A DNA stretch of 35,827 nt from a bacterium (GTDB lineage: Bacteria > Vulcanimicrobiota > Vulcanimicrobiia > Vulcanimicrobiales > Vulcanimicrobiaceae), in the NCBI GenBank assembly GCA_028869385.1, contig JAGWSR010000039.1, forward strand, positions 1 through 35,827. The letters run 5' to 3'. Positions 216 through 11,539 of the stretch are shown piece by piece. Under the pieces are notes generated by a model. It did no database searches. It was not told the origin of the DNA and saw only the letters and a program-made list of their open reading frames with translations. Made by a program: the position numbers and the translations under genes. How positions within the stretch are numbered: the stretch's first letter is position 1; each line of letters starts with the position of its first letter.

Positions 216-3005
216 TCAGGCGGTGGCGCTGCGCTGCGAGCGCCCGAGTATCTCCGGAAAGCGAGCGATCATCTCTTCGCCGCGCATGGGCCGCGCGAAG
301 AGAAAGCCCTGCGCGAGGCGGCAGCCCGTGTTCTGCAGCACTTCGCGTTGGCGCTCCGTCTCGACGCCCTCGGCCACCACGCGTACGTCGTAGGCCTCGG
401 CGAGCGTCATGAGCGTTCGCACGATCGGTTCGCTCGCGACCTCGCCGTCCGGGTTGCTCACGAAGGAACGGTCGATCTTGATCGCATCCACTTTGAACTG
501 CTGCAGGTAGCGCAGCGACGAATAGCCCGTGCCGAAGTCGTCGATGCAGATTTGGAAGCCGCGTTCGCGCACGCGTTCGAGCGTCGCGTTCGCGCGCGTT
601 CCGGCATCGAGCACGACGTTCTCCGTGATCTCGAGCGTGAGATCCGACGGCGCGAGCCCGTGATGCTCGACGAGCGCGACGAGTAGGCGTTCGAAGTCGG
701 GGTCGGAGAGTTCGCTCGCGGAGACGTTGACGTGCATGCTGAAGTCGAGCGTTCCGCCGCGATTGCGCCGCCACGCCGCGAGTTGCTCGGAGGCCGTCTG
801 CAAGACGAATCGGCCGATGGGCGACGCGAGCCCCGCCTGTTCGGCAAGCGCGATGAACTCGGACGGATTGAGCGTGCCGAGCGTCGGATGATCCCAGCGG
901 ATCAACGCCTCGCATCCGTTCGGCACGCCGTCGTGCATGCCGACGATGGGCTGGTAGAGCAGATGGAACTCGCCGTGGTCGATCGCGGAGCGCAGGTCGT
1001 TGAGCAACTGCACGCGCCGCTGCGCCCGCTCGTGCATCGTCGAGTCGAAGAGCGCGAAGCGCGTTCCGCCCGAATTCTTCGCATGTTGCATCGCAATCTC
1101 GGCGTCGCGCATCACATCCTCGGCACGCTCGTAGGTCGCGGTACCGATCGCGATGCCGACGCTCGCGCCCAAGTAGGCCGAGCGATTGCCGATCGTGATC
1201 GGCTTCGAGAGGTTGTTCAGAATGCGGCGCGCGACCGATTCGACGTGCAGGATGTCGCCGAGCGATTGCACGAGAATCGCGAACTCGTCACTCCCGAGCC
1301 GCGCCACTACGTCGCGTGCGTCCACCGAGGCGCGCAGCTTCGCCGCGATCTGCGTGAGGACCAAGTCGCCGGCGGCGTGGCCCATGGACTCGTTGACGTC
1401 TTTGAAGTGTTCGAGATCGACGAAGATCACTGCGAAGAACGAGTCGAGCAGGGCGCTCGCTTCGTCGAAGCGATAGCGCAGTTGCTCCTCGAAGAGCTGG
1501 CGATTCGGAAGCCCGGTGAGCGCATCGTGGGTCTTGTCGTGCTGCATGCGGCGCTCGTTGTGCTTGAGGGCGGTCTTATCGCGGAACATCGCGATCACGA
1601 AGCGCGCGCCGCCTTCGTCGTTCACGATCGAGAGGGTCGCGTCGGCCCACACATCTTGGTTCGCCGAGACGCGCACGTGCTGCTCGTATTCGTACGTCTC
1701 GCGCTCGCCCGAGAGCAGCACGCCGATCGCGCCTTCGTGCCCTTGGAGCGCGCTCGCGTTGCTGTCGCCGAACATCGTGCGGAAGACGTCGTTCGAATCC
1801 ACAATCGCGCCGGCTCGATCGAAGATCGCGATGCCGATGGCCGCGCCGTCGAAGACCGCTCGGAACTGCGCCTCCGAGAGCCGGAGCGCTTCTTCTGCTT
1901 CTTGACGCGCGAGCTCGGCGCTCAATCGCTCCGATTCTTCGTGCGCGCGCCTGAGCGCGTCGCGGTCGCGGCGCGCGATCAACTGTGCGATCGCGATCAT
2001 GATCCCGACCAGCAGCACCGCGCCGAGCACGAAGGCAAGGTAGAGGTACCGATCGCGTAGCGCGTTCGAAGCGCCGCGTTCGACGATGTCGGCGTCGAGT
2101 GCGACGCCGCTCTCGATAAACAACTTGCGCGCGGCGACGTCGACGCGTGCTGCGTCGCGCCGGAGTTTGGCGAGCGGAGCGGTCGGAACGGGCTGCAGCA
2201 GCACGCTCGAAGAGAAGAGGCCGACGTAGGCGGAGCCTGCGTCGGTCATGCCGTTCGCGAGACCCGGCAGCTGAGCCCATTCGCTCTTGCGCTCGGGCAG
2301 CAGCGAGGCGAGGGTCTCGGCGACTTGACGCGGGTGATCCGCGGAGACGTCGTAGCCCGTGCGCAATGCGTAGACGGTCGTCGCGATGTCGATGCGCTCG
2401 TCGAGCGTCAATCCGCCCTGCTTCGACGCGAGTTCGGCGAGCGTGCGTAGTCGCTGCGTTCCGGAGAGCGCGTAGGGCGCCTCTTGCATGTAGAGATCGG
2501 CGAGATTTTGCGCGACGGGGCTTGGATCGTAGGTGAGGCCCGAATTATCTTCCATCGCGGTGACGAAATCGGATGTCGCCACGAAGAGGGGACTCAGCTC
2601 GCGCATCGCCTTCGGCGACGGCTGCAAGCGCGACGCCGGACGCCACGCGGCGCGTACCGCGTCCCATCGCTGCTGGACGTCGAGCAGCGCACCGTCACCG
2701 CGCGCGAGATCCGCGGTCGTCTTCGCGAGCTCATCGGCGAAGGCCGTACGCCGCGCCGCGAGGTCCGGCGTGTTCAGAACCAAGGCATAGCGATACCGGT
2801 CGAGCAGATCCACGATCTTGCGGACGTTCGCCGTCTGATGGACCGCGGCGCGCTCGCGCGCGACGGCGGCGCGGTCGAGCCCCGACTCCTTTGAGAGCTG
2901 AGCAATACGCCATAAGACGAGACTCAAAAGCACCGCTGAGACGACGGTCACCACGATGCCGAGCGAGTCGCGCCAGCGCTGCAGAGCGAGGCGATCGCGA
3001 TTCAT
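216..3005 (-). CDS. membrane-anchored PAS-GGDEF-EAL cyclic-di-GMP protein
   Basis: Predicted inner-membrane sensor of about 929 residues that makes or breaks down cyclic di-GMP. A hydrophobic helix near residues 12-33 and a second near 320-343 bracket a roughly 290-residue, probably extracytoplasmic, helical sensor region that I do not recognise. A PAS domain (about 370-490), a GGDEF domain (about 500-665) and an EAL domain (about 675-915) follow. The GGDEF signature reads GSDEF near residue 572 and lacks an RxxD inhibitory site, so cyclase activity is uncertain. The EAL side keeps EALIR, the N of NVSAS, the E of LEITEN, DDFGTGYSS, KIDRS, EGVET and AQG, so phosphodiesterase activity is likely. 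I chose ATG at 3003-3005; an in-frame GTG at 3015-3017 would add four residues. It lies after the tRNA terminator, so it probably has its own promoter. Confidence 0.92.
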   Translation of the reverse strand: MNRDRLALQRWRDSLGIVVTVVSAVLLSLVLWRIAQLSKESGLDRAAVARERAAVHQTANVRKIVDLLDRYRYALVLNTPDLAARRTAFADELAKTTADLARGDGALLDVQQRWDAVRAAWRPASRLQPSPKAMRELSPLFVATSDFVTAMEDNSGLTYDPSPVAQNLADLYMQEAPYALSGTQRLRTLAELASKQGGLTLDERIDIATTVYALRTGYDVSADHPRQVAETLASLLPERKSEWAQLPGLANGMTDAGSAYVGLFSSSVLLQPVPTAPLAKLRRDAARVDVAARKLFIESGVALDADIVERGASNALRDRYLYLAFVLGAVLLVGIMIAIAQLIARRDRDALRRAHEESERLSAELARQEAEEALRLSEAQFRAVFDGAAIGIAIFDRAGAIVDSNDVFRTMFGDSNASALQGHEGAIGVLLSGERETYEYEQHVRVSANQDVWADATLSIVNDEGGARFVIAMFRDKTALKHNERRMQHDKTHDALTGLPNRQLFEEQLRYRFDEASALLDSFFAVIFVDLEHFKDVNESMGHAAGDLVLTQIAAKLRASVDARDVVARLGSDEFAILVQSLGDILHVESVARRILNNLSKPITIGNRSAYLGASVGIAIGTATYERAEDVMRDAEIAMQHAKNSGGTRFALFDSTMHERAQRRVQLLNDLRSAIDHGEFHLLYQPIVGMHDGVPNGCEALIRWDHPTLGTLNPSEFIALAEQAGLASPIGRFVLQTASEQLAAWRRNRGGTLDFSMHVNVSASELSDPDFERLLVALVEHHGLAPSDLTLEITENVVLDAGTRANATLERVRERGFQICIDDFGTGYSSLRYLQQFKVDAIKIDRSFVSNPDGEVASEPIVRTLMTLAEAYDVRVVAEGVETERQREVLQNTGCRLAQGFLFARPMRGEEMIARFPEILGRSQRSATA

Positions 3006-3064
3006 CAGGTGTGCCACGTTCTCAGGTCACCCTCAGGACTACTGCCGGGAGGGACACAAGATGA

Positions 3065-3104
3065 CAAAAAAGGAACCCGGCGGAGCGAGAGCGTCCGCCG
3101 GGTT
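3065..3104 (-). terminator. intrinsic terminator of the Pro-Arg-His tRNA run
   Basis: A perfect 11-bp inverted repeat (AACCCGGCGGA at 3074-3084 with TCCGCCGGGTT at 3094-3104) has a 9-base loop. On the minus strand it is followed by CC and then a run of six or more T (3066-3071). It ends transcription nine bases after tRNA-His. Confidence 0.9.
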
Positions 3105-3112
3105 CGCACGTT

Positions 3113-3190
3113 TGGGGTGACTGACCGGGTTCGAACCGGCGACCTCCTGAGTCACAGTCAGGCGCTCTAACCAGCTGAGCTACAATCACC
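3113..3190 (-). tRNA. tRNA-His(GTG)
   Basis: On the minus strand the anticodon stem CCTGA/TCAGG encloses CTGTGAC (anticodon GTG). The extra 5' G at position -1, typical of tRNA-His, faces discriminator C73. Acceptor GTGATTG pairs with CAGTCAC. CCA is encoded at 3113-3115. It is the last of three tRNAs before the terminator. Confidence 0.95.
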
Positions 3191-3227
3191 GTAAGGCCCG
3201 CATTTCGCGCCCTCGTGTTCCGGGTCT

Positions 3228-3301
<74 letters not shown>

Positions 3302-3334
3302 GAGCACCACGTTAGGATACCACGGCGGTGCAAG

Positions 3335-3411
3335 TGGTCGGGACGACAGGATTCGAACCTGCGACTTCTTGCTCCCAAAGCAAGCGCTCTACCAAGCTGA
3401 GCTACGTCCCG
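3335..3411 (-). tRNA. tRNA-Pro(TGG)
   Basis: On the minus strand acceptor CGGGACG pairs with CGTCCCG, and anticodon stem CTTGC/GCAAG encloses TTTGGGA (anticodon TGG). The T loop is TTCGAAT and CCA is encoded at 3335-3337. It begins 21 bases after the stop of the GNAT gene with no terminator between, so it is probably processed from a protein-coding transcript. Confidence 0.95.
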
Positions 3412-3432
3412 ATGCGCTCTCGCGCCCAAAGA

Positions 3433-4290
3433 TTAGAAGCTGAGCGGATGAAATCCCACGTAACGGCGCAGATCCACCTCGGGGAGATTCGACGCGAAGA
3501 TCGCGCTGCTGCGTTCGACCCGCAGGCCGAACTCGCCGGCTGCGCGCAGTACGCGCTGATTGCTTCCGGGAACGAGCAGCGTGCACCAGCTCGCGCCGTA
3601 GGTTCGCCGCAGCGCCGCGAGCGCGAAGCCCAAGAACGACCCGAGATACGAGGCCGAACCCGCGGCGACCGGCCCGATCCGACCGTCCGGCCACACGTAT
3701 GCGTAGCCGGCGCATTCACCATCGAGATAGAACGCCGTCCCCGAGGCGACTTCGCAAAGATCGGCGTGCTCGCCCGGCTTCGCGGTCGCGCGAACCTCGC
3801 GATCCAACGCATCCACGTCGTACGTCGTTCGCGCGTCGATCGCCGCGGTTGCGAAGCGATACCGCGTCGCCGCCACGCGCATCAAGCGATCCTCGCGCGG
3901 GATCTCGCCCGCGAGCCGCAACACCGGAACGTGCAGCGCCAACCCGCGCCGCACGAGAAATCCGAGCGTCGCCGCATCGGCGGCGTCGGCGAGCGCCGCG
4001 ATCGCGCAATCCGCCGCGTCGTCGGTGGCGGCTTCGAAGAGGCGACGACCGATGCCCGAGCCGCGAAACGAAGGTTCGACGAAGAGTTCGCTGACGAAGC
4101 GTTCGAACGCGAACGCACGGGCGAAGGCGACGCCGACGGGCGCGCCCGCGTCACGCGCGATCCAGGCACCGTTGACGGCGCGCTCCGCCGCGCGCAGGTA
4201 GAGGCGCCGGCCGATCTCGTCGTCGCAACGGCGCCGCGCGAGGTCGCGGAGATCGGCCTCGGTCGCCGGGACGATCTCGGGCTCGTTCAT
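3433..4290 (-). CDS. GNAT-family acetyltransferase, probably two GNAT modules
   Basis: A 285-residue protein starting with MNEPEIVPATEADLRDLA, the usual first strand of a GNAT domain. The acetyl-CoA loop signature is RGSGIGRRLFEAA near residues 70-82. A second half (about 160-275) again looks GNAT-like: a strand-rich segment around YAYVWPDGRIGPVAA, a helix FLGFALAALRRTYG, and a PGSNQRVL turn resembling the last part of a GNAT fold. The substrate cannot be predicted. The ATG at 4288-4290 overlaps the rdgB stop (ATGA), so the two are translationally coupled. An upstream extension of the frame runs antisense-like through rdgB with implausible Arg-rich sequence and was discarded. Three tRNAs follow directly. 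Confidence 0.85.
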   Translation of the reverse strand: MNEPEIVPATEADLRDLARRRCDDEIGRRLYLRAAERAVNGAWIARDAGAPVGVAFARAFAFERFVSELFVEPSFRGSGIGRRLFEAATDDAADCAIAALADAADAATLGFLVRRGLALHVPVLRLAGEIPREDRLMRVAATRYRFATAAIDARTTYDVDALDREVRATAKPGEHADLCEVASGTAFYLDGECAGYAYVWPDGRIGPVAAGSASYLGSFLGFALAALRRTYGASWCTLLVPGSNQRVLRAAGEFGLRVERSSAIFASNLPEVDLRRYVGFHPLSF

Positions 4291-4880
4291 TTCGTGACGA
4301 GCGCCTCGAGCAACGCGTCGGCCGCGCGGCGACGATGGCTCAGCCGATTCTTCTCCGCGTCGGTCATCTGCGCGAACGTGCGTCGCGAGGGTGGATAGAA
4401 AAAGATCGGATCGTACCCAAAGCCGTGCTCGCCGTGCTCGCCCTCGGTGATGCGGCCGTTGACGATACCTTCGGCGACGATCTCTTCGCCGGTCGGCAGC
4501 AACAAGACGAGTACGCTCACGAAGTGCGCGCCCCGCTCGCTCTCGTGCAAGCCATCGAGCTCGCGGCAGAGCGCGGCACGGCGCTGCGGCCACGTGGCGT
4601 TCGCTCCCGCGTACCGCGCCGAGAGCACGCCCGGACGACCGTCGAGCGCATCGACTTCGAGACCCGAGTCGTCGGCGAGAACCGCCGCGTCGATACCCGC
4701 TTCGCGCAGTTGTCCCATGAGCGCATGCGCTTTCAAGCGCGCGTTTTCGACGTACCCCGCCTCCCCCTCGGCCACGTCGGCGTACCCGTCGTACGTCGCG
4801 AGATCCAGGTGTCTGCCGGCGAAGATCGCCACGAGCTCCGCGAGCTTCCCGGCGTTCTTGGTGGCGACGTAGGTCTTCAA
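4287..4880 (-). CDS. rdgB: XTP/dITP pyrophosphatase (HAM1/RdgB)
   Basis: Cytosolic nucleotide-pool cleaner that hydrolyses dITP, XTP and ITP to monophosphates, keeping deaminated purines out of DNA and RNA. The 197-residue length is normal for the family. Visible signatures are ATKNAGKLAEL at the N terminus, DDSGLEVDAL with the metal-binding acidic residues, PGVLSARYAG, GFGYDPIFF and a C-terminal SHRRRAADALL. The start codon is TTG (4878-4880), seven bases after the lepA stop, giving LKTYVATKN. No ATG lies close enough to keep the nucleotide-binding strand. It sits in a lepA-rdgB-GNAT run with short gaps and overlaps, so it is probably cotranscribed. Confidence 0.97.
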   Translation of the reverse strand: MKTYVATKNAGKLAELVAIFAGRHLDLATYDGYADVAEGEAGYVENARLKAHALMGQLREAGIDAAVLADDSGLEVDALDGRPGVLSARYAGANATWPQRRAALCRELDGLHESERGAHFVSVLVLLLPTGEEIVAEGIVNGRITEGEHGEHGFGYDPIFFYPPSRRTFAQMTDAEKNRLSHRRRAADALLEALVTK

Positions 4881-4887
4881 CGCCGAA

Positions 4888-6717
<1,830 letters not shown>

Positions 6718-6722
6718 GGCGC

Positions 6723-7010
6723 TCAGAATCCGACGTAGCAGGCGGTGAACGCCGCGCGCACGAGCAGCGGCACGATCAGATAGTTCAGGACGAGCAGTAC
6801 GACGAGAAACGCGAGATCGAACCCGCCGAGCGGCGGGATGATACGGCGAACGGGGGCGAGCACGGGCTCGATCACCATCGCGAGGTAGCGTACCCACGGT
6901 CCGCGCAGATCCGGCAGCCACGAGAGCACCGCATACACGAAGAGCAGCACGGAGTAGAGGCGAGCGAGCCAGATCACCAGTTGATCGAGCTGGCAGAGAA
7001 GTGCATTCAC
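6723..7010 (-). CDS. YggT-family integral membrane protein
   Basis: A 95-residue membrane protein with two hydrophobic segments (about residues 10-35 and 65-90) flanking the family hallmark VLSWLPDL...[34 protein letters not shown]. YggT proteins are single- or double-unit membrane proteins of unresolved role, linked to osmotic or ion homeostasis and often found near cell-division genes. This is a single-unit form. The start is GTG at 7008-7010 (GTG AAT GCA CTT). It lies between the M23 peptidase (16-base gap) and lepA (5-base gap). Confidence 0.9.
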
Positions 7011-7026
7011 GACGGGATTCGCAGTT

Positions 7027-7941
7027 CTACGGGAGCGATGCTAAGACATTTGCGGGCACGCCGGTCAGAAACGGCGTCGGGTTGACGGGCGTGCCGTCGT
7101 ACATCACCTGATAGTGCAGGTGCGGCCCGGTCGAGAAGCCCGTCGAACCGACCGCGGCGATCGGTTCGCCTTTATACACGTGCTGTCCGATGCGTACCTC
7201 GGCGCGCGAGAGATGCGCGTACCACGTGTGGTAGCCATTGCCGTGGTCGATATCTACTTTGATGCCGTAGCCGCCGTCGTACGAGTTCGCGACGACGGTA
7301 CCGGCGGCGGCGGCGCGCACGGTGTCACCGTAATCGGCCGCGAGATCGACGCCTTCGTGGAACTCGGTGTCGGGGTACGTGCGATAACAGTAGCAACCGA
7401 TCACTTCGGCGCCGGCGACCGGATCGATCGACGGAATCGCCGCGATCATCTGCGCGCGAGCGAGGTCGCGGAGATGACGAATATTGAGCACGTGCATCGC
7501 GAGGCGCCGGGTGAGGGCCGTCTCGCGCGCGACGGCGCTGCCTTCCGCGCTCAAGAGCTTCATCCGCGCCGCCACCGCGGGCAGGCTCGACCCGCGCACC
7601 CACGAGGTCTTCTTCACCGGCGACTTCGCGGGGGCAGGCGCGCCGATCAATTGCCGAATCTCCTGATTCTGGCGCTGTACGCTCTGGAGTTGCTTGCGCA
7701 GCGCATCGGTCTGACGATCGATCTGGTGCAGCGTCGCCTTTTGCGCGTCGGTCTCGGCGCGCAGCGTCGCCACCTGGGCGTGCGCGCGTAGCGCGGTCAG
7801 CGCCGCGAAGCCGAGCGATCCGAGAATCACGAACGCGACGAACCCCAGCGCCGCGAAGATATGGCGGCGCGTGATCTGCAGGCGATGCACCGTCTCACCC
7901 TTATGGGGGACGATCTTCACATAGTACCGGTCGTCAATCAT
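7027..7941 (-). CDS. M23-family cell-wall metallopeptidase, membrane-anchored
   Basis: A 304-residue envelope protein: a short cytoplasmic basic N terminus, a transmembrane helix (about 28-50), a coiled coil (about 55-95, rich in RAETDAQKATLHQIDRQ-type heptads), then a LytM/M23 domain (about 170-295). The zinc ligands are intact: EFHEGVD supplies His and Asp and GPHLHYQV supplies the HxH pair. The companion histidine in YHTWYAHLS is also present, so it should be an active peptidoglycan endopeptidase. The ATG at 7939-7941 overlaps the stop of the DUF4446 gene (ATGA). Frame sequence further upstream is an antisense-like artefact and was excluded. A role in cell separation or wall remodelling is inferred from the family. 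Confidence 0.93.
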   Translation of the reverse strand: MIDDRYYVKIVPHKGETVHRLQITRRHIFAALGFVAFVILGSLGFAALTALRAHAQVATLRAETDAQKATLHQIDRQTDALRKQLQSVQRQNQEIRQLIGAPAPAKSPVKKTSWVRGSSLPAVAARMKLLSAEGSAVARETALTRRLAMHVLNIRHLRDLARAQMIAAIPSIDPVAGAEVIGCYCYRTYPDTEFHEGVDLAADYGDTVRAAAAGTVVANSYDGGYGIKVDIDHGNGYHTWYAHLSRAEVRIGQHVYKGEPIAAVGSTGFSTGPHLHYQVMYDGTPVNPTPFLTGVPANVLASLP

Positions 7942-8432
7942 GCCTTCTTCGATCGCGCGAACTCGATCGCGCGCAATTCTTCGTCGGAGGCGGGGACCGC
8001 CGGCGAGAATTTGGTGACGGCCTTGCCGTACGTGCGCGTGTCGCTTCGCGAATAGATGCTCGAGATGACGACGCCGTCGCCGTCCCGGTTGAGGAGCGCG
8101 AGGGCGTACGAGAGTTCGGAACCCGTGTCGTCGTAGGCGTCGTAGCGGACGAAGCCGACCCGCGAGAGATCGGTCCGTGCCAGGGCTTCGAGTTCGCCCG
8201 TCCGCTCGGTTACCCCCTGCAGGGCCGAGCGCTGGGCGGCGATCTCCCCTTCGAGCGCCTGAAGCCGTGCCGAGGCGCCGGCCCCGCCGCCGATCAACTG
8301 ATCGTGCGTGGCGGTCAGCTCGCTCAAGCGCCGCAACGCGGGGCGCATCGCGACCGCGTGATAGATGTACAGCGCGACGAGCGCCGCAAGAAGAGCCGCG
8401 AGCGCGGCGACGATCGTAAGTGTCGGCATCAT
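7938..8432 (-). CDS. DUF4446 family membrane protein
   Basis: A 164-residue protein with one N-terminal transmembrane helix (about 5-27), a predicted coiled coil (about 35-80), and the DUF4446 core VRYDAYDDTGSELSYALALLNRDGDGVVISSIYSR followed by YGKAV. In many bacteria DUF4446 proteins are found near chromosome-partition or cell-wall genes; their molecular role is unknown. Two adjacent ATG codons begin the gene (8430-8432 and 8427-8429). It is coupled to the M23 peptidase by a 4-bp overlap, which hints at a joint envelope function. The SRP RNA ends about 30 bases upstream. Confidence 0.88.
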   Translation of the reverse strand: MMPTLTIVAALAALLAALVALYIYHAVAMRPALRRLSELTATHDQLIGGGAGASARLQALEGEIAAQRSALQGVTERTGELEALARTDLSRVGFVRYDAYDDTGSELSYALALLNRDGDGVVISSIYSRSDTRTYGKAVTKFSPAVPASDEELRAIEFARSKKA

Positions 8433-8462
8433 GTTTTGGAAAATAAGGAGCCACGACGAGAG

Positions 8463-8560
<98 letters not shown>

Positions 8561-8605: not shown

Positions 8606-10117
8606 ATGGGAGGTCTCGTGCTGCTTTTGTCGCTTCTAATCGCCGTCGCCGAGCCGCCGGCGCTCGATTGGCACCCCGAGCCGACGGCCTATGCCGCCGC
8701 GTGCGGCGACGCCGTCACGCGTTACCGCGGCTCGCTCGAAGCGATCGCTCGGACCCAGTCACCGAGCCTGGCAAGCATCGTGCTGCCGCTCGAACGCGCC
8801 CAGGCCGACCTCGACGACGCGACCGCGACGGCTCCGATTCTCGAGCACGAGGCCGCGGCTCCCGATCTTCGGGAGGCGGCGCGAACCTGCCGCGAGAGCG
8901 CCCGGACCGCCGACGAGACCGCCCTCGCCGATCCACGTCTCTTCCATCTCCTGCAGCGCGTCTTTCACGGTCGCTGGGCCCGCACGCCGATCGAGCGCTC
9001 GCTCGGATTGCGCTGGCGCTCGCTGCTCGTCGCCTCCGGCGGTGCGCTCGCCCCGCAAGCGCGCCGGGCCCTGCTCGTTCGCCGCGCCGAGCTCGATGCG
9101 ATCGAGGCCGACTACGCGGAGCACCCCGACGAGATGCTCTTCGCTCGGGCCGCCGCCGCACGCGACCGGCTCGCGCATCTTCTGGGCTACGAAAGCTGGG
9201 CGGAACGTGCCCTAGCCCCGACCTCGCTGCGCACGCCCGCGGCCGCGGAGAAGCTGGTCGAGCGGATTCTCGCCGAGCCGACGGCGCAACCGCATTCGCT
9301 CGATCCCGCGCCCGAAGCGCTCCCCCTCGCGGGACTGCCCGACGATATCCTCGCCGTGGACGCCGCGTTTCTCGGCCTGCGGGTCACGCACTCGGACCTA
9401 GCCGGCTGGTCCCCGAGCGTGCGCGTCTTCGATGTAAACGACGCAGCGAGCGGCGATCCGATCGGCACGCTCGCACTCGACTTCGACGCGGACGACCCGC
9501 GCGGCGCGCAACTGCTCGTGCCGCGCCGCGACGATGGGACGGGCACGCATGCGGCCTACGCGGTCGTGCGCATGCGATACCCGGCACCGCGCCGCGGCGG
9601 CACGATGCTCGCCCGAGCGCAGGTGGCGGCGCTCGCCGACGAACTCGGTACGGCGCTCGCGTCGCTCGTTCCCGACACCGCCTACGAGCGCCTCAACGAT
9701 GTCAGCCCCGACGTCTCGCGCATCACCGGCGCGCTCTTTGCCGACCTCTTCCCACGCGCGCGCGACGAACGCGCCGAGCTCGCGAGCGACGCGCACGTCG
9801 CGTCGCTCGACCTACGCCTCGCGCAGGGCGGCAGCGGCGCCGACGCGCGAATGGCGTGGCGCGCGCTCGCTCCCGCGCAGCGCGCGGTGCTGGTGCGCGA
9901 CGCGGGCCTCGTAAGCGCACGAAACGTGCTCGCCCGCCTCTACGCGGCGGATATCGCCGCGGACCTCGGCGCCGAACCGATCGCTCAAGAAGTCGGCCGG
10001 CGCTATCGCCGCCTCGTCCTCGAGCCCGGCGGCGCGCTGCCGGTGCTCGACGAACTCACACGCTTTCTCGGACGCCCGCCCGACCTGGAACGCCTCTACA
10101 CGCCCGACGCACCCTGA
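8606..10117 (+). CDS. secreted M3-family oligopeptidase homologue, zinc site lost (pseudopeptidase)
   Basis: A 503-residue protein with a short signal peptide (LVLLLSLLIAVAEPP). The family is recognisable from several parts: RDRLAHLLGYESWAERALAP (compare the LGYxSYAE region of M3), the HEFGH helix region LADELGTALASLV, and a C-terminal AADIAADLG...VGRRYRRLVLEPGG...FLGRPPDLERLY that matches the end of thimet oligopeptidase and OpdA. However, HEFGH is replaced by DELGT (residues 345-349), so both zinc histidines are gone. The downstream Glu ligand region reads SRITGALF, and the substrate-binding tyrosines of GYDAGYY are missing. It is also about 150-200 residues shorter than active M3 enzymes. 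The frame is intact, so a binding, chaperone or regulatory role is more likely than proteolysis. A CDGSH gene and hmgA follow. Confidence 0.8.
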   Translation: MGGLVLLLSLLIAVAEPPALDWHPEPTAYAAACGDAVTRYRGSLEAIARTQSPSLASIVLPLERAQADLDDATATAPILEHEAAAPDLREAARTCRESARTADETALADPRLFHLLQRVFHGRWARTPIERSLGLRWRSLLVASGGALAPQARRALLVRRAELDAIEADYAEHPDEMLFARAAAARDRLAHLLGYESWAERALAPTSLRTPAAAEKLVERILAEPTAQPHSLDPAPEALPLAGLPDDILAVDAAFLGLRVTHSDLAGWSPSVRVFDVNDAASGDPIGTLALDFDADDPRGAQLLVPRRDDGTGTHAAYAVVRMRYPAPRRGGTMLARAQVAALADELGTALASLVPDTAYERLNDVSPDVSRITGALFADLFPRARDERAELASDAHVASLDLRLAQGGSGADARMAWRALAPAQRAVLVRDAGLVSARNVLARLYAADIAADLGAEPIAQEVGRRYRRLVLEPGGALPVLDELTRFLGRPPDLERLYTPDAP

Positions 10118-10160
10118 TGCGAACCGGAGTGCGTCGCGCGTGCGGCGAAGGCGAACGTTC

Positions 10161-10373
10161 ATGCAAGACGTTCGCATCAAGGTTCGCGACAACGGCCCTT
10201 ATCTCGTCACCGGAACCGTGACGCTGACCGACGCGACGGGCGCGCCGTACGCGGTCGAGGGGAATTTCGTGCTCTGCCGCTGCGGCGGCTCGGCCACCAA
10301 ACCGTTCTGCGACGGCTCGCATCGCGACAACGGATTCGCGGCCGTCGAACGCGCCCCGGAATCACAGGAGTAA
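10161..10373 (+). CDS. CDGSH-type 2Fe-2S protein
   Basis: A 70-residue soluble protein with one CDGSH iron-sulfur motif: Cys39, Cys41, Cys50 and His54 (CRCGGSATKPFCDGSH), the 3Cys-1His ligand set of the mitoNEET family. The preceding strands (VRDNGPYLVTG...YAVEGNFVLC) match the small bacterial type used for redox or Fe-S transfer. The start is ATG at 10161, giving MQDVRIKVRDNGPY; an upstream ATG at 10140 would add an Arg-rich tail. Its stop is two bases before hmgA, and its last codons contain the AGGAG ribosome-binding site for hmgA, so the two are coupled. Its role in homogentisate metabolism is unknown. Confidence 0.93.
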   Translation: MQDVRIKVRDNGPYLVTGTVTLTDATGAPYAVEGNFVLCRCGGSATKPFCDGSHRDNGFAAVERAPESQE

Positions 10374-10375
10374 CC

Positions 10376-11539
10376 ATGCCTTCGTACGTACGCGCGGGCT
10401 CGCTTCCGCACAAGCGCCACATTCAATTTCGTCGGCCGGACGGCGGACTCTACGCCGAAGAGCTCTTCTCCACAAAGGGCTTCGAGAGCGTGTACTCGCT
10501 GCTCTATCACCAACGCCCGCCGACCGCGACGCTCGACGTGCGTCCGTGGCATCGCCCGAGCGTGACGTTCCTTCCGAACGATCCGCTGCGCAACCGTCAC
10601 TTCAAGGTCGCGCAGTTGGAGACGAGCGGCGACGCGATCGATTCGCGGCGCGCGCTGCTCGGCAACGACGACATCGTGCTCTCGATCGCGCATGCCGACC
10701 GTCCGATGGAGTACTGGTATCGCAACACCGGCGGCGACGAGATGCTCTTCATCCACCAGGGCGCGGGCACGCTCGAGACGCCGTTCGGCGAACTCGCGTA
10801 CCGTCAGCACGACTTTCTCGTCATTCCGACCGGCACGACCTATCGCGTGCAGCCCGCTGCGCCGACGCGAATGTTCGTGCACGAATCCTCCGGCGCGATC
10901 GTGATTCCACGCAAATACCGCAACGAGTTCGGCCAACTGCAAGAGCACGCGCCGTATTACGAGCGCGACTTTCGCGCGCCGCTCCTCAAATCGCCGGTCT
11001 TGGCCCGCGGCGAGTACGAAGTGCGCGTGAGCAATCGCGGCCGTCACGCCGTCTACATTGTCGAGAATCATCCGTGCGACGTGATCGGGTGGGATGGCTA
11101 CTGCTACCCGTATGCGTTCAACGTCGAAGAGTTCGCGCCGATCACCGGCCAACTGCACCAACCGCCGACGGCGCACGCGACCTTCGAGGCACCCGGCGCC
11201 GCGTTCTGTGCATTCGTTCCGCGCCTCTTCGACTACCATCCGCTCGCGATTCCGGTTCCGTACAATCACTCGAGCGTGGACTGCGACGAAGTGCTCTACT
11301 ACGTGAGCGGTAACTTCATGAGCCGCCGCGGCGTCGAAGAGGGCTCCGTCACGCTGCACGCCGCCGGTGCCCCGCATGGACCGCAACCCGGCGCGGTCGA
11401 GGGCAGCCTCGGCAAAAGCCGTACCGACGAGATCGCGGTGATGGTCGATACGTTTAAGCCGCTGCACCTCGCGCAGAGCGCGCTCGACGTCGAGGACCCC
11501 GCCTACTTCCGTTCGTGGATCGAGGCGCCCGCGACGTAG
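10376..11539 (+). CDS. hmgA: homogentisate 1,2-dioxygenase
   Basis: A 387-residue cytosolic Fe(II) enzyme that opens the ring of homogentisate to maleylacetoacetate in tyrosine and phenylalanine catabolism. It is of the short type, like those of Gram-positive bacteria, rather than the 440-residue proteobacterial and eukaryotic form. Iron ligands are visible as His298 and Glu305 in PYNHSSVDCDEVLYYVSGNF and the His of GAPHGPQPG. The N-terminal cupin part carries MEYWYRNTGGDEMLFIHQG. AGGAG lies seven bases before the ATG. The stop codon directly abuts the stop of fahA on the other strand, with no spacer. Confidence 0.95.
   Translation: MPSYVRAGSLPHKRHIQFRRPDGGLYAEELFSTKGFESVYSLLYHQRPPTATLDVRPWHRPSVTFLPNDPLRNRHFKVAQLETSGDAIDSRRALLGNDDIVLSIAHADRPMEYWYRNTGGDEMLFIHQGAGTLETPFGELAYRQHDFLVIPTGTTYRVQPAAPTRMFVHESSGAIVIPRKYRNEFGQLQEHAPYYERDFRAPLLKSPVLARGEYEVRVSNRGRHAVYIVENHPCDVIGWDGYCYPYAFNVEEFAPITGQLHQPPTAHATFEAPGAAFCAFVPRLFDYHPLAIPVPYNHSSVDCDEVLYYVSGNFMSRRGVEEGSVTLHAAGAPHGPQPGAVEGSLGKSRTDEIAVMVDTFKPLHLAQSALDVEDPAYFRSWIEAPAT

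Follow-up and report, generated by a model that had tools for sequence, protein, structure and literature searches.

Catalytically dead M3 oligopeptidase homologues beside ffs in a Candidatus Eremiobacterota family: apparently repeated inactivation and relaxed selection

Why does a peptidase fold outlive cutting, and does what remains decay slowly or gain a binding role? This question is raised by a gene at positions 8606..10117 (plus strand) of the window, i.e., the whole stretch of 35,827 nucleotides that was analysed. The reading frame is open throughout, as an earlier note on this DNA had claimed, and encodes 503 amino acids; an alternative start is possible at a GTG at position 8618, which is preceded by GGGAGG (8608-8613). 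Profile, alignment and structural model characterize the product as a catalytically dead homologue of the M3 oligopeptidases.

An M3 fold without its zinc site

The Pfam profile PF01432 (Peptidase_M3) matched the window protein with 45.1 bits (E = 1.2e-11), well above its curated cut-off of 27 bits, and the other dead copies described below with 52-169 bits. In addition, a phmmer search employing the window protein matched neurolysin and thimet oligopeptidase. From an input alignment of the window protein with 16 homologues (17 sequences in all), AlphaFold yielded a model with a pLDDT of 84.9 and a pTM of 0.84. The top 15 PDB matches of this model are all M3 enzymes with a TMq of 0.72-0.82, and the comparison with neurolysin 2o3e gave an E value of 1.2e-19 and a TMq of 0.80. 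Judged by the predicted structure, the window protein retains the M3 fold of the thimet oligopeptidase type. The M3 ancestry suggested in the earlier note, which had proposed both the profile search and the structure prediction and had regarded an unrelated fold as fatal to the idea, is borne out by these matches. Its landmarks LGYESWAE and VGRRYRRLVLEPGG are located at residues 193 and 463, respectively. Relative to intact orthologues, the alignment further shows two deletions in the window protein, one of about 65-75 residues following residue 169 and a smaller one near residue 381.

An active M3 peptidase is expected to contain HExxH, a third-ligand Glu about 25 residues further downstream and the substrate-binding Tyr/His residues, none of which was found in the window protein. 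At the position of the HEFGH zinc motif the alignment with intact orthologues shows DELGT (residues 345-349; 9638..9652, plus strand), where both His ligands are lost and the general-base Glu is still present as E346. The third-ligand segment EAPSQ has become part of SRITGALF (residues 371-378; 9716..9739, plus strand), with the ligand Glu replaced by Arg (EAPSQ to RITGA), and the substrate-binding loop GYDAGYY now reads DAGLVSARN (residues 432-440; 9899..9925, plus strand). DELGT and SRITGALF thus lie at the residues reported previously, and the alignment agrees with the earlier claims that all zinc ligands are replaced and that the substrate tyrosines are gone.

The protein starts with a short hydrophobic leader (MGGLVLLLSLLIAVA followed by EPPALD; 8606..8668, plus strand), which upon inspection of the sequence contains an AVA/E site and no Lys or Arg in the n-region; the intact relatives mostly have normal leaders. 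Of the signal peptide proposed earlier, the hydrophobic leader is therefore present, but it is weaker than stated, as the basic residues are lacking. Moreover, the Cys pair C33 and C95 is invariant across the aligned dead and intact copies, which fits an exported protein. Export of the window protein appears likely, though not certain. In genome G015 (L065:8798-10774) the M3 has an intact catalytic site but seems to have lost its signal peptide (MLPALALTWSF). This M3 has one of the longest branches of any intact copy and possibly represents an intermediate step towards loss.

Three states of the ffs-linked slot and the number of inactivations

The M3 gene is oriented head-to-head with ffs, which encodes the bacterial small SRP RNA (Rfam RF00169, 73.8 bits; 8459..8557, minus strand), and the same divergent linkage is found in relatives. 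Both belong to a block widespread in this family of the uncultivated phylum Candidatus Eremiobacterota, lepA-yggT-M23-orf164-ffs, followed divergently by the genes for M3, PEBP, CDGSH, homogentisate dioxygenase and fumarylacetoacetase, the neighbour genes being named from sequence. In the window, the conserved neighbours on the ffs side are lepA (4888..6717, minus strand), yggT (6723-7010), an M23-type peptidase gene (7027..7929, minus strand) and orf164 (7938..8432, minus strand). A CDGSH iron-sulfur protein gene (10161..10373, plus strand) and a homogentisate 1,2-dioxygenase-like gene (10376..11539, plus strand), likewise conserved, are located downstream of the M3 gene. Since the block is widely kept around ffs, the M3 slot can be used as a reliable marker of orthology. 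The PEBP-family gene, which follows M3 in several genomes, G001 and G002 among them, is absent from the window, where the CDGSH gene comes directly after M3 (10118-10160). On the lepA side of the block, Rfam identified five minus-strand tRNA genes (1-140 and 3116-3411), one of them cut by the window end; tRNA genes near the block recur in several relatives.

Across the family, this slot was observed in three states. In the locus tree, 20 genomes carry an intact M3 with HEFGH and a length of ~690 amino acids at this position. The gene is missing from 19 sampled genomes, among them those of the nearest sister genera, G085 and G041, and a dead M3 is present in 8 genomes of three genera, namely g1, to which the window belongs, g10 and g21. 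Many of the M3-less slots run straight to PEBP, CDGSH or dioxygenase genes, and a search for M3 remnants in the ffs-adjacent slots of M3-less genomes gave no M3 match. At the HEFGH position, g1 reads DELGT in the window, GSVGS in G001 and GDLGG in G002, g10 reads RLMGR in G011 and GDAGR in G075, and g21 reads GAAGS in G022, G080 and G081; across these variants only the Gly of HEFGH is kept. The conservation of DELGT among orthologues, which the earlier note had proposed to survey, consequently breaks down already within the same genus, and the conserved feature, as far as the alignments tell, is the loss of the site and not DELGT itself. The same note had held that orthologues with an intact HEFGH would speak against a pseudopeptidase. 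Such orthologues do exist in other genera, but they leave the idea standing, because their presence in the same position indicates that the M3 was ancestrally active and was then inactivated at least three times. The window protein thus combines an ancestor of the active type, evident from the intact positional orthologues, with the lack of essential catalytic residues, a combination expected of a pseudoenzyme. The lineage-specific origin suggested before is likewise supported.

Searches proceeded locus by locus. A scan of genome contigs with the window protein alone gave no confirmed relative. The alignment-based scan of genome contigs yielded 20 loci titled Eremiobacterota or merely 'bacterium', with the exception of L164 (JACDFK010000047), a Dependentiae MAG whose M3 relative has an intact HEFGH and which is the sole locus titled with another phylum. 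In G018, counted among the 20 intact genomes above, HEFGH is kept and the frame shifts just past EAPSQ (L069:2795-5096), leaving overlapping ORFs at 2795-5008 and 3648-5096, which would point to a recently formed pseudogene or to a mistake in the assembly.

How often was the site lost? On the starred branches of the tree built from LepA, YggT, M23, orf164 and the dioxygenase, at least three changes are needed, and none of 200 bootstrap trees supports a single origin of the dead M3. A larger neighbour-gene tree comprising more genomes gave the same count, and the dead copy of G011 has the intact G015 as a close relative. Alternatively, a single inactivation could have been followed by horizontal transfer of the dead gene into the same locus. 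The joint M3 gene tree can indeed unite all dead copies (unstarred, 90), and Gly replaces the first His in four of the six motif variants. However, this grouping unites the longest branches of the tree, and the very long branches of the dead copies may attract one another. When each dead group was placed in the M3 tree as the sole dead group, it joined its own species neighbours: g1 grouped with L065/L068/L104, g10 with L065 and g21 with L103/L112/L106/L107. Moreover, holding g21 with its species neighbours raised the likelihood by 23.6. Following these one-group-at-a-time trees, a common origin of the dead copies was set aside, and we consider a single loss with subsequent transfer improbable. 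As the individual placements match the genome tree, three separate, vertically inherited inactivations of the ffs-linked M3 are the best reading of the phylogenetic data. Elsewhere in its genome, G011 contains another M3 of the ffs-type clade that is intact (L071:4982-7057), kin to the copies of G095 and G006 (L077 clade), and that was probably acquired or relocated after the death of its own ffs-linked copy.

Selection after inactivation and the role of the dead copies

Since all g21 species share GAAGS, the differences among them arose after inactivation. The g21 pairs are unsaturated (dS 0.15-0.26) and their dead M3 shows a dN/dS of 0.29-0.33, significantly below 1 (2dlnL 35, 59 and 68 versus omega = 1). 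The ratio is below 1 in all five regions of the protein, in some weakly (2dlnL 2.9-23), and reaches 0.16-0.26 in the strands lining the former cleft. By comparison, intact M3 pairs with usable dS gave 0.04-0.07 and the neighbour genes 0.02-0.16; the constraint on the dead M3 is thus about five times weaker than that on the intact M3. In g1, the M3 dS between the window and G001 or G002 diverges due to saturation, and the dS of the neighbouring genes (1.05-2.74) was used instead. Together with an M3 dN of 0.53-0.56 this results in an omega of roughly 0.2-0.5. Within g1 the M3 proteins are 42-47% identical as compared to 75-95% for the neighbour proteins. Neutral simulation over g1-like distances put the expected number of stops in the g1 sequences at about 2.5-8, and none was observed. 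The probability that the frame survives neutral drift was 0.003-0.09 for the window sequence and 0-0.007 for G001; neutral drift produces few stops in a sequence as GC-rich as that of the window, so the open frame by itself counts as modest evidence. Taken together, the dead copies appear to evolve fast but not neutrally, under selection that is relaxed yet present. This is shown in one of the three genera, g21, where the purifying selection measured after inactivation supports the pseudopeptidase idea of the earlier note; in the window's own genus the neighbours' dS points indirectly to purifying selection.

What could the protein do? An exported M3 oligopeptidase would have adjoined ffs in the ancestor of the family; in the window genus and, separately, in two other genera, substitutions have destroyed its zinc site. 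The dead protein has since become shorter and changed rapidly, yet its frame, the predicted M3 fold and the invariant Cys pair are retained. In one genus of three, selection is seen to purge amino-acid changes throughout the protein, the strands of the former cleft not excepted. Outside the cytoplasm, the old substrate channel may hold or sequester peptides, and cutting may be left to another M3, an intact one of the Dcp type, encoded in the same genome. The window genome indeed contains an intact Dcp paralogue (C127). Among the genera with a dead copy, g1 and g10 have Dcp and g21 does not, and few genomes with an intact M3 carry it. Redundancy with Dcp may have made cutting by the exported M3 dispensable; given its absence from g21, it would be at most part of the cause. 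On balance, we slightly favour a convergently formed, exported and weakly constrained non-catalytic pseudo-oligopeptidase that binds peptides or proteins in its old channel. The bolder proposal, that an oligopeptidase at one fixed locus was turned three times into a selected, non-catalytic peptide-binding protein, is tentative and falls a little short of even chances.

The strongest rival to a binding role is slow decay towards deletion. On this view, the exported M3 would have become dispensable owing to Dcp or lifestyle and its constraint would have relaxed; the active site would be lost first, deletion would follow later, as in many sister genera, and the gene would have no selected function now. 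This would account for the 19 genomes that lack M3 at the locus, for the long branches of the dead copies, and for the presence of Dcp in the window genus and g10, yet in few genomes with an intact M3; the low identity within g1 and the fivefold weaker constraint also fit. On the other hand, g21 lacks Dcp and keeps a full-length dead M3 under the constraint described above, the frames are open in eight widely diverged genomes, and the M3 of the three g1 species has no stop despite a neighbour dS above 1. We therefore regard decay as a serious possibility, somewhat less probable than not. Much less credible is the persistence of peptide hydrolysis via a rebuilt metal site or other chemistry. 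Although E346 is kept in the window copy and Asp is able to bind metal, the residues replacing the two His vary by species (D/T, G/S, G/G, R/R and G/R), the third ligand survives in none of the dead copies but that of G075, and the Tyr/His loop for substrate binding has disappeared; we consider this very unlikely. Lastly, the source is a metagenome-assembled genome of 152 contigs, in which misassembly or sequencing errors might mimic a dead gene. The same dead, open gene was found at the same locus in independent assemblies of two other g1 species, which practically excludes an artefact.

Relation to known pseudoenzymes and significance

The window protein shares with M3A peptidases (thimet oligopeptidase, neurolysin, Dcp/oligopeptidase A) the fold, the N-terminal helical domain, LGYESW and the C-terminal motif YR..L.P....FLGR. 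Unlike these, it has no zinc His pair, third-ligand Glu or substrate loop, and it comprises 503 instead of ~690 residues. Locus, Cys pair and descent connect it with the intact ffs-linked exported M3 of other Eremiobacterota (e.g., L068 and L065). In contrast to the window copy, these have retained HEFGH...EAPSQMLEN...GYDAGYY, or sequences close to it, and intact pairs are strongly constrained (omega 0.04-0.07). M3 non-peptidase homologues are catalogued in MEROPS, and dead M3 proteins as a kind are thus known in outline. Our search of the PubMed Central literature found no description of an M3 pseudopeptidase. The reviewed metallopeptidase pseudoenzymes include cases in M1, M12, M13, M14, M15, M16, M24 and M41, among them Gone early (M13), Ebp1 (M24), alpha-MPP (M16) and FtsHi (M41), several of which bind protein via the pseudo-active site, and the tables of this review contain no M3 member (PMC11266112). 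As in those cases, the fold is kept, the metal ligands are replaced and a non-catalytic role is proposed; in contrast to them, the dead M3 is known by evolutionary evidence alone, and inactivation was repeated at one bacterial locus.

The new aspect is that inactivation recurred at a single locus while selection persisted. Pseudoenzymes tend to be encountered as isolated, ancient events, whereas one locus in one bacterial family here presents three fates of the same gene: active, dead but kept, and deleted. With three independent inactivations and many intact comparators at the same slot, it can be asked why a peptidase fold outlives cutting, and the locus could help to separate slow decay from the gain of a binding role. 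If the proposed role is true, no pseudopeptidase lineage would have been described before this one in family M3, and the binding use of the M3 substrate channel would be separable from catalysis.
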